Part shown: positions 5,152-9,982 of the stretch, one piece after another
Numbering within the stretch: position 1 is the first letter of the stretch
Layout: every line of letters begins with the position of its first letter
Origin: Candidatus Muproteobacteria bacterium
Lineage (GTDB): Bacteria; Pseudomonadota; Gammaproteobacteria; Acidiferrobacterales; SPGG2
Direction of reading: 5' to 3'
Assembly: GCA_003251795.1 (NCBI GenBank)
Contig: QKEI01000049.1
Coordinates: 1-35,530 of the forward strand
DNA: 35,530 bases
Translations under genes and position numbers: made by a program
Notes under the pieces: model-generated
What the model was told of the DNA's origin: nothing
The model's input: the letters and a program-made list of their open reading frames with translations, nothing else
Database searches by the model: none

Positions 5152-5817
5152 ATGAAGAAGACACTGCTATTTTGGAGCGGCGGTAAAGACAGCGCGTACG
5201 CGCTGCATCTGCTGCGCCAGCAAAACGATGTGCAGGTAGCCGGCCTGTTGACGACCGTCAACCGGCCGGTCAGGCGCATTGCCGTGCATGCGGTGCGTGA
5301 GAAGCTGCTGACGGCGCAGGCACAAGCCTGTGGGTTGCCGGTAAAGCGAGTAGCGATTCCCGATCCCAGCAACAACGAACAATACGAAAGCGCCATTGGT
5401 ACCGCGCTCGCCGAGGGGTTGGCGAGGGGTATCAACGTCGTCGTTTTTGGTGACCTATTTCTTGAGGATATTCGCGCCTATCGGGAACGGCTACTGGCCG
5501 ACAGCGGTATCGAGCCCTTGTTTCCACTTTGGGGGCGCGACACGCGCGAGCTCGCGGCCGAGATGCTGGCCGCCGGTGTGCGTGCCCGCCTGACCTGTGT
5601 CGACCTCAAGGCGCTGTCGGCACCATTCGCCGGTCGCGAATACGATTCACAGCTATTGGCCGAGCTGCCGGACGAAGTCGACCCGTGCGGGGAAAACGGC
5701 GAATTTCATACCTTCGTCTACGCGGGCCCAATGTTTAGCAGGTCCATTGCGGTGCGCACCGGCAAGGTAACGGAGCGTGATGGTTTCGCCTATGCTGATC
5801 TTTTGCTGACCGAGTGA
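5152..5817 (+). CDS. PP-loop ATPase of the diphthine--ammonia ligase (ATP_bind_4 / DUF71) family
   Basis: 221 residues from ATG 5152 (MKKTLLFWSGGKDS). The open frame extends upstream, but the SGGKDSAYAL PP-loop sits at the very N-terminus in this family, which fixes the start. Other family marks are VVFGDLFLEDIRAYRE, PLWGRDTRELA and the C-terminal DPCGENGEFHTFVYAGP. Archaeal and eukaryotic relatives (Dph6) make diphthamide on elongation factor 2, which bacteria lack. The bacterial protein must therefore adenylate something else, and its role is unassigned as far as I know. It is followed 7 bases later by a 4Fe-4S protein gene, so the two are probably co-translated. Confidence 0.88.
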   Translation: MKKTLLFWSGGKDSAYALHLLRQQNDVQVAGLLTTVNRPVRRIAVHAVREKLLTAQAQACGLPVKRVAIPDPSNNEQYESAIGTALAEGLARGINVVVFGDLFLEDIRAYRERLLADSGIEPLFPLWGRDTRELAAEMLAAGVRARLTCVDLKALSAPFAGREYDSQLLAELPDEVDPCGENGEFHTFVYAGPMFSRSIAVRTGKVTERDGFAYADLLLTE

Positions 5818-5824
5818 CGAGGCC

Positions 5825-6508
5825 ATGGAACTATCGGTGATTGAACAAGCGTTGGCGCGGGTGGGACTCAAAGCGCGCGGCGGTTTTCATCCGCACATCG
5901 ATGATGAGGTACCGCCGTTACCCGACGGGCGTCCGGTGAAAACGGTGGTGCTCGCCGGTAACGTCGGCGATTCGGCGTGGCAACCATACCAACAAGCGCT
6001 CGTCAAAGAAGCCAAGCCGCTGTCACTGGATGAATGGAGCGAGCGCGTGCTGACAGCGGTCGCGCGTACGCTCAGAGCGCAGCCACTGTTTCCCTTCTCA
6101 GGCCCACCGTATCTGCCGTTTCAGCGCTGGGCGCAGCATGCCGAAGCCGTGGCGCCATCACCGATCGGGCCGCTGATCCATCCAGAGTACGGTTTGTGGC
6201 ACGCCTATCGCGGCGCGCTGGCCTTTGCCGAGCGCATCGAGCTGCCGGCGCCGGCTGCTCGTGCCACCCCGTGTAAGCGTTGCGCAACACGGCCATGCCT
6301 TTCCAGCTGTCCGGTGGGCGCCCTGACGCCTGGTCACTTCGATGTGGCGGCGTGCGTGACTCATATCGGCAGCGAGGCCGGTCGCGCGTGTCTCTACGAG
6401 GGCTGTCTCGCACGTCGTGCCTGCCCTGTTGGTCCCCGCTTCCAATATCCGCCAGCGCAGGCCCATTTTCACCAACAGGCCTTTCTGCGTAATGCCAGGA
6501 AAACGTGA
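5825..6508 (+). CDS. 4Fe-4S dicluster ferredoxin-like protein, QueG-related
   Basis: 227 residues. The C-terminal half holds two cysteine clusters: CKRCATRPCLSSCPVGAL (CxxCxxxxCxxxCP) and, after a spacer, CLYEGCLARRACPVG. Together these supply enough cysteines for two 4Fe-4S centres. The N-terminal half (GGFHP, VVLAGNVGDSAW, PYLPFQRWA, LIHPEYGLWHAYRGAL) matches a widespread proteobacterial family annotated only as 4Fe-4S protein. It is distantly like the C-terminal part of epoxyqueuosine reductase, but it lacks that enzyme's full cobalamin-binding domain length. It lies 7 bases after the PP-loop ATPase gene. Probably a cytoplasmic redox protein; substrate unknown. Confidence 0.82.
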   Translation: MELSVIEQALARVGLKARGGFHPHIDDEVPPLPDGRPVKTVVLAGNVGDSAWQPYQQALVKEAKPLSLDEWSERVLTAVARTLRAQPLFPFSGPPYLPFQRWAQHAEAVAPSPIGPLIHPEYGLWHAYRGALAFAERIELPAPAARATPCKRCATRPCLSSCPVGALTPGHFDVAACVTHIGSEAGRACLYEGCLARRACPVGPRFQYPPAQAHFHQQAFLRNARKT

Positions 6509-6581: not shown

Positions 6582-7007
6582 ATGCGTACTGATGCCAATT
6601 GCATTTTTTGCAAGATCGTTGCCGGTGAGATCCCTTGCTTCAAGCTCTATGAAGATGACCTCACTATCGCCTTCATGGATATCAATCCGGGAAACGAAGG
6701 CCATGCCCTGGTGATTCCCAAGGAACACTGGGAGGATATCTACGTGATTCCTTCAGCGTTGCTGGGGGCGACCATGCAGACGGTAAAAAAAATCGCCGAA
6801 GCGGTGAACAAGACCCTAAGTCCTTACGGCATGAACCTGGTGCAGGCGAATGGTAAGGGCGCCGCGCAGTCCGTGTTCCACTTTCACATGCATGTGTTGC
6901 CGCGTGCCAAAGACGACGAGCTCAAGCTCAACTGGGGACTGCGCCCGGGAGACATGGACGCCATCAAAGGCGTACATGAGCGCGTGAAAAAGAATATTCT
7001 CGCCTGA
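6582..7007 (+). CDS. HIT-family nucleotide hydrolase/transferase
   Basis: 141 residues. The N-terminal CIFCKIVAGEIPC is the zinc-type beginning of many HIT proteins, and the C-terminal catalytic histidine triad is HFHMHVLPR. HIT proteins hydrolyse nucleoside phosphoramidates or dinucleotide polyphosphates. It is longer than HinT, and a second HIT gene (22259-22615) is the closer HinT match, so the two are probably not redundant copies. It has its own candidate promoter and converges on the mutase gene with 16 bases between stops. Confidence 0.9.
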   Translation: MRTDANCIFCKIVAGEIPCFKLYEDDLTIAFMDINPGNEGHALVIPKEHWEDIYVIPSALLGATMQTVKKIAEAVNKTLSPYGMNLVQANGKGAAQSVFHFHMHVLPRAKDDELKLNWGLRPGDMDAIKGVHERVKKNILA

Positions 7008-7023: not shown

Positions 7024-8583
7024 TCAGGCAATTACCAGCGGCTGGCCGAAGCCGAGCTCGCGCCGCAGGCAGGCGACGATCTCACCGTGCGTTGCCCCTG
7101 CAATTGCCGCCTCAACCACGCCGGCAAAAACATTCTGGTCCGGGCTGTTTGCTGCTGACGCGAGCCGGTCGAGCGCCGTTTGCACCTGGCGCTGACTGCG
7201 TGCGGCCTTGAAGGCTTGCAGACGTTTCAGCTGGTTCTCAACCACGGCCGTATCGGGGCGCGCTATTGGCGCGTGCTCGATCGCTTCGTCGGCCACCGTA
7301 TAGGCGTTGACGCCGACGACTTTCTGGGCGCCGCTTTCCACCTGCTCTTGAAACGCGAGCGCAGACTCGCCGATTCTCGACTGCACTAGGCCTTTTTCGA
7401 CCGCCTGGTACATGCCGCCAGCGGCGTCGATTTGGGCGATGACGTCGGCAATCTCCTGTTCCATCGCGTCTGTCAACGACTCCATATAATAAGAACCACC
7501 CAGCGGATCGATGACATCGGCCAGGTGCGCCTCATCACGAAGAATGTTTTGCGTATTGACGGCCACACGCGCGGCTTGTTCTGCCGGTGTGCTGAATACT
7601 TCGTCATACGCGTCTGTGTGCAAAGATTGCGGCCCGCCGAACAGTGCCGCCATCGCCTGGATCGTAACACGGGCAATGTTATTGAGCGGTTGCTGGCGTG
7701 TAAGGTCGACGCCGGAGGTTTGCGCGTGAAACTTGAAGCGCCAGGAACGCGGGTCTTTCGCGCCCAGGCGCTCGCGTACGATACGCGGCCACAACCGGCG
7801 CCCCGCGCGCAGCTTGGCGATTTCTTCGAAGAAGCTGATCGAGACATCGAAGAAAAAGGTGAAGCGAGGCAGGAAGCTGTCCGGATCGAGGCCGCGTGCG
7901 ATACAGTCCTCGGCGTACTGGATGGCCGTGCACAAGGTATAGCCCATGGCCTGCGCCGGTGTCGCCCCGGCCTGCTGCATATGCTGTCCAACGACCGACA
8001 CCGGGTTCCATCCCGGCACGTGCCGGTTGGTGAACTCGATGTGATCGACCAGCACGCGCCGCGAGCCCGCCAGCGACAGGCGGAAAAACATGTGATTGGC
8101 AACAAAGTGCGAGATAAAGTCACTCTGGTTGGAGGTGCCGGTGATCTTCGACCAGGGGATGTCACGGCGTTTTGCGACACCGAGTAGTAGGGCAAGCAGC
8201 GTGAAGGGCAGGGGATCATTCAAAGCCGTGGAGATCCGGTCGATAGGAATGCCCCGCAGGCACACGTCCATGTCATCGACCGTATTCACCATGGTGCCGC
8301 AGGTGCCGAGCAGCAGCGGGTCCACTTGGTCGATATCGTAACCCCGGTAGACGGAGTTGCACGGAATCAAGCTCACCGCCGATGCACCGGCCTGCAGGAT
8401 GGTTTGCAAGCGCTTGTTGTAGTCCTCGGGTGCGCCAAGGCCGATCAATTGCCGCTGACTCCACGCTCGCCCGCGATACATACTGGCATAAATACCGCGC
8501 GTCATCGGTAACTGGCCGGGGAAGCCAAGATCCGTTAGATAGCGCTCACCGTCCCAATCCAGGGGCGTATACAGGGGCTTCAC
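7024..8583 (-). CDS. adenosylcobalamin-dependent acyl-CoA mutase, large (substrate-binding) subunit, divergent
   Basis: 519 residues from GTG 8583. It is a methylmalonyl-CoA mutase-family barrel: [32 protein letters not shown] (histidine of the cobalamin face), [40 protein letters not shown] and [13 protein letters not shown]. The B12 domain is a separate gene, as in two-subunit mutases. By my alignment the residue equal to Tyr89 of methylmalonyl-CoA mutase is Leu46 (RQLIGLG), that equal to Arg207 is Asn163 (VANHMF), and the usual DLPTQ before GYDSD is CNSVY. The substrate is therefore probably not methylmalonyl-CoA. About 37 sense codons upstream (including [12 protein letters not shown]) continue the family N-terminus without any in-frame ATG, GTG or TTG. 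A good RBS plus ATG at 8698 lies one frame off, so a 5' frameshift is likely and the true N-terminus longer. No G-protein chaperone gene (MeaB/ArgK) lies in the window. Confidence 0.88.
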
Positions 8584-8695: not shown

Positions 8696-8710
8696 CATAT
8701 CGCTCTCCTT
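8696..8710 (-). promoter_or_regulatory. strong ribosome binding site and ATG out of frame with the mutase
   Basis: On the minus strand AAGGAG (8710-8705) sits 6 bases before an ATG (8698-8696), and it overlaps the stop of the B12-binding subunit gene. This is where the mutase should start, but the ATG frame is one off from the mutase frame and soon loses any family similarity. It decides that the annotated GTG 8583 start is a fallback. Confidence 0.6.
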
Positions 8711-9138
8711 CAAGCGCTTTGCATTGACCGCGCCGCGGCAGCCAAGCGCGTGACCTCACTGATGATCTCGTGACGCGCGGCGCCGGGGTGAAACACCCGG
8801 CTGACGCCCGCCGCAAGCAAGCCCGGTTCGTCTTCGGCCGGAACGATGCCGCCGACCACGACCTTGATATGCGCCAGCCCGGCGTCGCGCAGTGCCGCGA
8901 TGAGCTTCGGCACCAGCCGATGATCAGTAGCGAGTGTGCTCACGCCGATGATGTCTACGTCTTCTTCCAGCGCCAGCTTCACGATCACCGGTATTTCCTG
9001 CCACGGTCCCGTGTAGACTACCTCCATGCCGGCGTCGCGCAGGAATGCGGCGACGATGCGACTACCGCGGTCGTGGCCGTCGAGCCCTACCTTGGTGACC
9101 AGTATCTTGGGTGGGCGTGCGTGTGCGGGCGTGGTCAT
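8710..9138 (-). CDS. B12-binding small subunit of acyl-CoA mutase
   Basis: 142 residues from ATG 9138. The adjacent TetR stop overlaps this ATG (ATGA), which favours it over upstream starts. It is a complete cobalamin-binding Rossmann domain: KILVTKVGLDGHDRG contains the DxHxxG motif whose histidine replaces the lower ligand of the cofactor, followed by GVSTLATDH (the SxL segment) and KVVVGGIVPAED (the GG segment). It is equivalent to the C-terminal domain of methylmalonyl-CoA mutase or to the small subunits of isobutyryl- and 2-hydroxyisobutyryl-CoA mutases. It should pair with the large subunit encoded next. Translational coupling to the regulator upstream suggests one transcript. Confidence 0.93.
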   Translation of the reverse strand: MTTPAHARPPKILVTKVGLDGHDRGSRIVAAFLRDAGMEVVYTGPWQEIPVIVKLALEEDVDIIGVSTLATDHRLVPKLIAALRDAGLAHIKVVVGGIVPAEDEPGLLAAGVSRVFHPGAARHEIISEVTRLAAAARSMQSA

Positions 9139-9722
9139 GTTTGGTTTTCCCCGCCATACAACGCGCGCAAGAGTTCCATAGCGATGATGCGCGGCGGATC
9201 TCCCCCCGGCCGGTACCATGTCTGCGCCCAGTTAAGCGCGCCTAGCAGCAGCAGGCGGAAATAATGTCGATCCACCTCAGGCGGCAACTCGAGCTCAGCA
9301 ACCAGTTGCTTGAAGCGCACTTCATATTGGTCGCGCAAGGCGATCAGGCGCCGCTGCGACGGGCCCGTGTTATCCGGGACTACGCGCAGAACCACCTGCG
9401 CATAGTCGCTTTGATCGAGCAGCATTTCCAAGTGGGCGATGCACGCCGCCTGCAGACGCTGCTGCGGCTGTCGCTGCGCCTGCACCGCCGCATCGACTCT
9501 TTCGGCGATGCGACGTACGCCTTCTTCGTATACCGTCAGCAACAGCTCGTCTTTGGACGGAAAGTGGTAATAGATTGAACCCGGCAACATGCCTACAGCG
9601 CGGGCGATGTCACGCATGGAGGTGGCATGGTAGCCGTGCGCGCGGAACAAACGGGCCGCGGCGTCGAGTAACTGTAACCGGCGGTTATCCTGCCGTGGGC
9701 CGGTAGTGGCGGTATTGGACAT
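9135..9722 (-). CDS. TetR/AcrR-family transcriptional regulator
   Basis: 195 residues from ATG 9722. The frame extends 14 codons upstream, but those codons cover the presumed operator. The N-terminal helix-turn-helix region (RRLQLLDAAARLFRAHGYHATSMRDIARAVGM split over two helices, then GSIYYHFPSKDELLLTVYEEG) is unmistakably TetR type. The C-terminal part (residues about 80-195) is helical and ligand-binding, and resembles acyl-CoA or fatty-acid responsive members. It is the first gene of the mutase operon, overlapping the small subunit by 4 bases, so it probably represses its own operon until an acyl-CoA effector binds. The effector is an inference. Confidence 0.93.
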   Translation of the reverse strand: MSNTATTGPRQDNRRLQLLDAAARLFRAHGYHATSMRDIARAVGMLPGSIYYHFPSKDELLLTVYEEGVRRIAERVDAAVQAQRQPQQRLQAACIAHLEMLLDQSDYAQVVLRVVPDNTGPSQRRLIALRDQYEVRFKQLVAELELPPEVDRHYFRLLLLGALNWAQTWYRPGGDPPRIIAMELLRALYGGENQT

Positions 9723-9738
9723 GAGATAGGGCTTTAAC

Positions 9739-9752
9739 CAAACGGCCGTTTG
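9739..9752. promoter_or_regulatory. TetR-type operator palindrome
   Basis: Perfect 14-bp palindrome CAAACGGCCGTTTG, 17 bases upstream of the TetR ATG. AT-rich flanks add two matching pairs beyond one mismatch. AAACG-type half sites are common in TetR regulators of fatty-acid and acyl-CoA genes, so autoregulation is likely. Confidence 0.6.
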
Positions 9753-9815
9753 TTTTTCTAACACCCTGCATCGCCACTGTCAACGCTACGGCGACCCGCT
9801 AGTATCGATGGGGCA

Positions 9816-9835
9816 CTGAAACAGCGTCGTTTCAG
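9816..9835. promoter_or_regulatory. inverted repeat in the tetR/acyl-CoA synthetase divergent region
   Basis: CTGAAAC (9816-9822), 6-base gap, GTTTCAG (9829-9835). The GAAAC/GTTTC half sites resemble operators of PsrA-like TetR regulators of fatty-acid genes. It is about 190 bases before the synthetase start and about 100 before tetR. The binding protein is unknown; the local TetR could use it, but its half site differs from the palindrome at 9739. Confidence 0.35.
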
Positions 9836-9982
9836 CAACGCACGGCTGCTCAAGTTCGCACCGGCGTCGATGCAGGAAGGTGAGCGGTCGACTGGCAGGG
9901 TCCCAGGCGGCACAAACGCCCGCACGTCCGTCGAGTGCTATTGCAAACTCTTATTAGATCGGACAGAGTTAATTGCTTTAGC

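Follow-up and report, generated by a model that had tools for sequence, protein, structure and literature searches.

The stretch of DNA analysed here, referred to as the window, comprises 35,530 nt of Candidatus Muproteobacteria bacterium (GCA_003251795.1, contig QKEI01000049.1, positions 1 to 35,530, forward strand) and carries on its plus strand two genes that are separated, from the stop of the first to the start of the second, by 7 bases. The first gene (5152-5817) encodes a PP-loop ATPase of the DUF71/PF01902 family and of the DUF71-B12 type (P0001, 221 amino acids), and the second (5825-6508) an iron-sulfur protein for which a cobalamin fold of the CblC/QueG/RdhA type is predicted (P0002, 227 amino acids). 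The pair is followed, likewise on the plus strand, by a gene for a HIT-domain protein (6582-7007; PF01230, 98 bits), a neighbor of uncertain role that is found in the same position in one related locus (L013). On the minus strand, the large subunit of methylmalonyl-CoA mutase, a cobalamin enzyme (7024-8583; TIGR00641, 494.1 bits), and the B12-binding subunit of the mutase (8710-9219; TIGR00640, 123.3 bits over 8713-9144; PF02310, 81.9 bits over 8779-9108) are encoded nearby. No transport gene adjoins the pair in the window, a cobalamin riboswitch gave no Rfam match within it, and no tRNA gene lies within it.

P0001 is a member of DUF71/COG2102, as seen from its match to the Pfam family Diphthami_syn_2 (PF01902; 108.8 bits with a cut-off of 23.2, E 3.8e-31), and its nearest solved relative is 3rjz, an N-type ATP pyrophosphatase (E 1.5e-17). 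The ATP-binding PP-loop motif SGGKDS, read in the translation at 5176-5193 (+), has its residues S9, G11, K12, D13 and S14 invariant in 5/5 aligned sequences. According to the description of the family in PMC3541065, Dph6 carries the motif EGGE/D-X-E, whereas a bacterial, B12-linked group of DUF71 proteins has ENGEF/YH in its place. The motif in P0001 (5692-5709, +) and in its aligned relatives is ENGEFH (5/5), the DUF71-B12 signature, with a histidine where the Dph6 motif EGGE/D-X-E188 has a glutamate. A diphthamide role for P0001 was rejected because of this exchange; with the NCBIfam model TIGR03679, the protein scores 80.3 and the Dph6 cut-off is 197.3.

A preliminary description of the locus had assumed that nothing is known about what the bacterial Dph6-like family acts on. 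This does not hold, since B12 salvage was predicted in 2012 for the DUF71 subfamily with the ENGEF/YH motif (PMC3541065). The same paper reports that 75 of 102 DUF71-B12 proteins are encoded adjacent to B12 transporter genes, and that CbiZ and DUF71-B12 are anticorrelated. The DUF71-B12 idea itself is thus already known. As far as the sequences tell, the motif alone is weak evidence for a B12 role, because it is not specific to those DUF71 proteins that are adjacent to B12 genes: among 27 bacterial DUF71 proteins examined, ENGEF/YH is exact in 17 and the histidine is present in all 27, and several proteins of the ENGEF/YH type have neighbors of another kind, for instance genes of histidine biosynthesis (by eye).

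Some further DUF71 loci were inspected. In genomes of family f55 (L115, L116, L118, L119, L121-L123, L125), the DUF71 gene is flanked, by eye, by a TonB-dependent receptor on one side and a gene resembling glutamate racemase on the other. Two of these receptors were scanned, and the one in L116 gave a siderophore-receptor match, the one in L121 being BtuB-like; it adjoins the DUF71 gene, and its ORF, which is cut, reaches 312 of the 599.7 bits required by TIGR01779. The window's own genome (C82) has a second DUF71 gene (L001, 1435-2190, -), which carries ENGEYH and scores 110.2 bits with TIGR03679 (cut-off 197.3). There is no iron-sulfur gene on that locus, and the next gene is, by eye, D-alanyl-D-alanine carboxypeptidase-like.

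P0002 had no Pfam match up to an E value of 1, the MMACHC family PF16690 included, and only sub-threshold matches in NCBIfam, among them NapG (18.2 bits) and QueG (TIGR00276, 15.7 bits with a cut-off of 200). Eight cysteines between C150 and C200 (6272-6424, +) are invariant in all 71 aligned sequences, which fits two 4Fe-4S clusters, and P0002 shares this set of eight with the ferredoxin part of QueG and RdhA. Equally invariant (71/71) is R129, which lies in the segment GPLIHPEYGLWHAYRGALAFA (6167-6229, +). For the analysis of this protein family in named genomes, 229 loci were confirmed, the best 80 of which were analysed, and the alignment used for fold prediction (A4) consisted of P0002 and 69 of these 80 loci, L025, L029, L050, L056, L065, L067, L080, L081, L083, L084 and L090 having been omitted by hand to shorten the list.

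The AlphaFold2 model obtained from these 70 sequences has a pLDDT of 94.9 and a pTM of 0.90. When it was compared to the PDB using Foldseek, the best matches listed were QueG (E 9.8e-6) and human MMACHC (E 2.9e-5), with loose superpositions (TM about 0.5). With VIA-align, MMACHC came first among the matches listed (Z 14.0, rmsd 3.4, 188 aligned residues, model residues 1-223), and QueG (12.1), reductive dehalogenases (about 9) and the B12 chaperone CblD (5.2) came next. On the predicted model, P0002 therefore has the nitroreductase-type cobalamin fold of CblC, QueG and RdhA. Profile-profile comparison linked the P0002 family to QueG (E 7.2e-6, probability 84, residues 69-184). With a profile from which the cysteine part was removed, MMACHC was among the best PDB matches through its alignment with GPLIHPEYGLWHAYRGALAFA, at a non-significant E of 0.4, and sequence matches between P0002 and MMACHC are non-significant by themselves (E 0.29-0.62). 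In the chain sequence of 3sby, the arginine aligned with R129 is at position 161 by count, and R161 is presumably a disease position in MMACHC. A search of 150 genomes with PF16690 was uninformative, with the controls silent too, and was not used.

MMACHC, QueG and RdhA all bind cobalamin, and MMACHC, or CblC, is the eukaryotic B12 decyanase, dealkylase and chaperone. P0002 is like MMACHC in its predicted fold, which matches along almost the entire chain, in the aligned arginine of GPLIHPEYGLWHAYRGALAFA and in its link to B12 enzymes (see below). It differs from MMACHC in that it is bacterial, carries two predicted 4Fe-4S clusters with eight invariant cysteines to hold them, and is not matched by the MMACHC family of Pfam. 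Bacteria are described in PMC5070874 as being without CblC homologs, and MMACHC is described in PMC13376404 as restricted to eukaryotes. The layout of QueG, as given in PMC4646009, is a cobalamin module followed by a two-cluster ferredoxin whose second cluster touches cobalamin, and a DYH motif is named there. P0002 shares the module and the ferredoxin with QueG in the predicted model, whereas it lacks the DYH motif (D97, Y98 and H99 are invariant in 13/13 QueG rows) and the C-terminal HEAT-repeat domain, is only 227 amino acids long and falls short of the QueG cut-off by a wide margin. By its sequence, P0002 is related to QueG, but is not QueG. Reductive dehalogenases share the core fold with the model, but P0002 is much the smaller protein, 176-182 of its residues aligning with RdhA chains of 413-701. 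In the model, P0002 looks like a minimal QueG/dehalogenase core, i.e., a nitroreductase-type cobalamin module joined to a ferredoxin with two clusters, the C-terminal part that binds the substrate being absent. The preliminary description, which had a Dph6-like PP-loop ATPase followed within 7 bases by an iron-sulfur protein related to QueG, was accurate in both respects.

That description had also envisaged an ATP-dependent step combined with iron-sulfur redox chemistry on a nucleoside, a cofactor or a protein. A new pathway of this kind, acting on a tRNA nucleoside, a protein or another molecule that is not B12, would be in line with the predicted fold, which P0002 has in common with the tRNA enzyme QueG, and with a QueC-like PP-loop gene (by eye) that lies about 1.4 kb from the iron-sulfur gene in one genome (G097; L127, 955-1731, -; L104, 1492-2172, +). 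We nevertheless give a target other than B12 a very low probability. QueG is present above its cut-off elsewhere in the genome in all four genomes of the window's family (its own included), and P0002 lacks the DYH motif and the C-terminal domain, for which reasons a nucleoside is disfavored; furthermore, B12 genes recur among the neighbors, and MMACHC, QueG and RdhA, to which its model is close, bind cobalamin. Of the targets envisaged, the cofactor is the best fit. A queuosine role for P0002 was rejected in view of the separate QueG and the absence of the DYH motif.

The pair occurs in the same order in 3/3 other searched genomes of the window's family. Among the best 80 of 229 loci, DUF71 lies directly upstream of the iron-sulfur gene in the eight nearest ones (L012-L019), the two genes either overlapping, by up to 4 bases, or lying up to 10 bases apart according to the ORF starts used, with iron-sulfur protein identities of 57-62%. 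Three of these loci (L012, L013, L015) apparently represent the same three other family genomes, such that the two counts overlap; the window and L012-L019 together make up the nine paired genomes referred to below. In L019, DUF71 is reduced to a 3′ fragment (9729-9974, +), which reflects either decay or an assembly error. The remaining 72 loci of this best 80 gave no DUF71 ORF on the stretch retrieved, which in some of them ends near the gene, and the pairing therefore belongs to one lineage. When 96 genomes, the window's own included, were searched with P0002, any match was found in nine and a strong full-length match in four, all of which are of the window's own family (its own genome included). 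Another genome, G019, has a divergent match (32% identity over residues 100-221) and no DUF71 on the locus. The pairing thus is tight but restricted to one lineage, and it is kept in relatives, whereas its absence from all of them would have pointed to chance adjacency according to the preliminary description.

A tree of 70 iron-sulfur proteins places the nine paired rows together with the unpaired L033 and L082 in a group of 11, which is weakly supported (89/66; bootstrap not converged). Among 398 genomes of the phylum, 59 carry the iron-sulfur family, counted at an E value of at most 1e-33, and 22 carry DUF71 above its cut-off. Matches to the iron-sulfur family at E 0.001 or better were obtained in 114 of these genomes, but the 55 weaker ones, which mostly cover the cysteine part only, were dropped. 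In these phylum searches, the best candidates per genome were scored, namely three each for MttB and mutase and up to seven for the iron-sulfur profile. Both DUF71 and the iron-sulfur family are found in four genomes including the window's own, with 3.3 expected (ancestry uncorrected), which is at the level of chance, and outside the window's own genome the two genes are not neighbors in any of them. The count of co-occurrence and adjacency that had been suggested in the preliminary description therefore gives a split answer, with co-occurrence at the level of chance and an adjacency that is real, though in one lineage only.

These observations, i.e., a co-occurrence no higher than chance across the phylum and nine paired rows in one weakly supported tree group that also includes two unpaired ones, are what would be expected if two independent genes had become adjacent by chance and had been fixed in this state in one lineage, a situation that would be compatible with the iron-sulfur protein handling B12. 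We regard such a chance adjacency as decidedly unlikely, since the genes remain at most 10 bases apart down to 57-62% identity of the iron-sulfur protein while the flanking genes differ, and since the DUF71 and iron-sulfur families each have B12 links of their own.

To describe the company of the iron-sulfur gene, neighbors were found by greedy gene choice and by directed phmmer queries, and for those from the gene choice the naming is by eye wherever no Pfam or NCBIfam score is given. Methylmalonyl-CoA mutase ORFs lie within 5 kb of the iron-sulfur gene in eight of the nine paired genomes, the ninth (L016) being a contig of 4.2 kb. A BtuF-like gene is divergent to the pair in three of the eight named paired loci (L012, L013, L015), and the one of L012 scores 105 bits with PF01497 and 70.5 bits with the BtuF model, below the cut-off of 234. 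In the 72 unpaired loci among the best 80 of 229, most are without any queried B12 gene; MttB lies within 1.1 kb of the iron-sulfur gene in nine of them, and the nearest MttB is never farther away, while IcmF is found about 20 bp upstream of it in L037. In Sinorhizobium (pSymB) and Paracoccus aminovorans, the iron-sulfur gene follows a methyltransferase gene of the MttB type and is located beside a corrinoid protein and DUF1638, and in Methylibium it lies at the end of a cobalamin operon with cobyric acid synthase, cobT and cobS genes, the annotated frame of that copy being shortened.

In 12 of the 72 unpaired loci among the best 80 of 229 (L021-L026, L028, L029, L035, L054, L061, L085), the iron-sulfur gene has as its direct neighbor a gene that resembles, by eye, a class I glutamine amidotransferase and that in several loci overlaps it by a few bases. 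A divergent homolog of the iron-sulfur gene is located near a gene of the 2′-5′ RNA ligase type (2H phosphoesterase) in Methylibium (L099, 4189-5534) and in G019 (L007, 39-1887), this assignment being based on PF13563 (46.2 bits) in L099 and made by eye in L007.

Across the 398 genomes of the phylum, MttB is found in 41, of which 37 also have the iron-sulfur gene (6.1 expected, ancestry uncorrected) and four do not. In family f94, MttB is encoded within 200 bp of the iron-sulfur gene in 10 of the 11 genomes that bear it, and within 1.6 kb in all 11. The mutase is present in 42 of the 59 genomes with the iron-sulfur gene (27 expected, ancestry uncorrected), and in family f82 both MttB and the mutase, the only two B12 enzymes queried there, are missing from 17 genomes that have the gene. 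The presence of the iron-sulfur gene in 37/41 genomes with MttB and the adjacency in f94 would be accounted for if the protein were solely a reductive activator of corrinoid methyltransferases, doing the job of RamA or DUF1638, and DUF71 were a passenger. DUF1638, which is described as a reactivation protein (PMC12478193, PMC5764234), is in fact encoded in the same Sinorhizobium and Paracoccus loci, such that it keeps the same company (MttB type and corrinoid protein) as the iron-sulfur gene. P0002, however, is a different protein, with a predicted CblC/QueG fold, and the main text of PMC12478193 contains neither the word "ferredoxin" nor "iron-sulfur". We consider it unlikely that activation of methyltransferases is the only role of the protein, because no MttB match was found in the window's genome (three of six first-look candidates scored), where the iron-sulfur gene lies beside mutase genes, and because 22 of the 59 genomes bearing the iron-sulfur gene are without an MttB match.

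The supply of cobamides was considered in the four genomes of the window's family, all of which, the window's own included, are drafts with a completeness of 76-95%. CobS, which is needed to rebuild the nucleotide loop, was found in 0/4 of them (control genomes positive 10/14), and so was CbiZ (0/4; control genomes positive 5/14). The own genome has 11 B12-binding matches. A match to PF03186 is present in 4/4 family genomes; in the own genome, the protein concerned is the only CbiB-family match and scores 80.3 bits, below the CbiB cut-off of 165.9 and below the CobD/CbiB-family cut-off, and its gene has an AmpD-like gene (by eye) and a BtuF-like gene (PF01497) as neighbors. On account of this score and the AmpD-like neighbor, PF03186 was rejected as proof of cobinamide salvage. 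The members of the window's family look like users of imported complete cobamide, and since neither CobS nor CbiZ was found, remodelling of pseudo-B12 is unlikely in them.

This bears on the function considered for DUF71 in 2012, that of an Ado-pseudo-B12 amidohydrolase substituting for CbiZ, in which case the iron-sulfur protein would prepare the corrinoid. The ENGEFH motif of P0001 agrees with such a function, as does the failure to find CbiZ in any of the four family genomes, which is what the published anticorrelation with DUF71-B12 predicts (PMC3541065). But with CobS not found in the same four genomes, and with the sole CbiB-family match of the own genome below the cut-off for a true CbiB, cleavage of a cobamide would be a dead end, and for organisms that apparently import complete cobamide, the function considered in 2012 would lead nowhere. 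We therefore hold an amidohydrolase role to be very improbable in this family. The family resembles the published DUF71-B12 subgroup in the ENGEFH of P0001, and the failure to find CbiZ and the BtuF-like gene beside the pair in three of the eight named paired loci may be further common traits; it differs from the subgroup in that CobS was not found and in that the partner here is an iron-sulfur protein. The main text of PMC3541065 mentions neither ferredoxin nor Fe-S, MMACHC or QueG.

The common denominator of the B12-type neighbors of the iron-sulfur gene is cobalamin rather than one substrate, and a cobalamin module with two clusters and no substrate domain is how a cobalamin reductase or chaperone would be expected to look. 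For both reasons, we propose reductive processing and hand-over of the cofactor. We consider it likely, with a good measure of reserve, that the pair constitutes a cobalamin (vitamin B12) processing module, and vitamin B12 is probably its target. This is supported by computation through the conservation of the pair, the family and motif of DUF71, the predicted fold of the iron-sulfur protein and the genomic link to B12 enzymes. From these we infer the binding of cobalamin, the direction of electron flow, the chemistry of DUF71 and the action of both proteins on the same molecule.

In animals, CblC strips and reduces incoming cobalamin. In a similar manner, the iron-sulfur protein would bind imported or oxidised cobalamin in the base-off state, and electrons would pass via its two 4Fe-4S clusters to the cobalt. 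Reduction of the cobalt would strip the upper ligands and give cob(II)alamin or cob(I)alamin, and the protein would then hand the cofactor to its clients, as CblC does. The clients might be an adenosyltransferase and methylmalonyl-CoA mutase in the lineage of the window, and corrinoid methyltransferases in alphaproteobacteria. DUF71 would be an ATP-dependent partner that modifies the cobamide, e.g., by amidation or repair, or loads it.

More tentatively, and with rather less confidence than we place in the processing module, one may think of the iron-sulfur family, which is without a family name and is present in 59 of 398 sampled phylum genomes, as a widespread bacterial counterpart of CblC. 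It would use its own two 4Fe-4S clusters to reduce or de-ligate base-off cobalamin before delivery to B12 enzymes, would link CblC, QueG and the dehalogenases, and would be coupled, in one lineage of apparent cobamide auxotrophs, to a DUF71 ATPase by which the cobamide is amidated, repaired or loaded. No description of a bacterial iron-sulfur CblC was found in the literature searched (open-licence PubMed Central).

Two questions thereby become accessible to direct tests. One is the role of the bacterial Dph6-like (DUF71-B12) proteins, which was left open in 2012 (PMC3541065). The other is the stripping and reduction of incoming or oxidised cobalamin in bacteria, which would gain a candidate protein. 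If bacteria have a small protein that resembles CblC and carries its own electron wire, it would also connect CblC, QueG and the reductive dehalogenases in a natural way.
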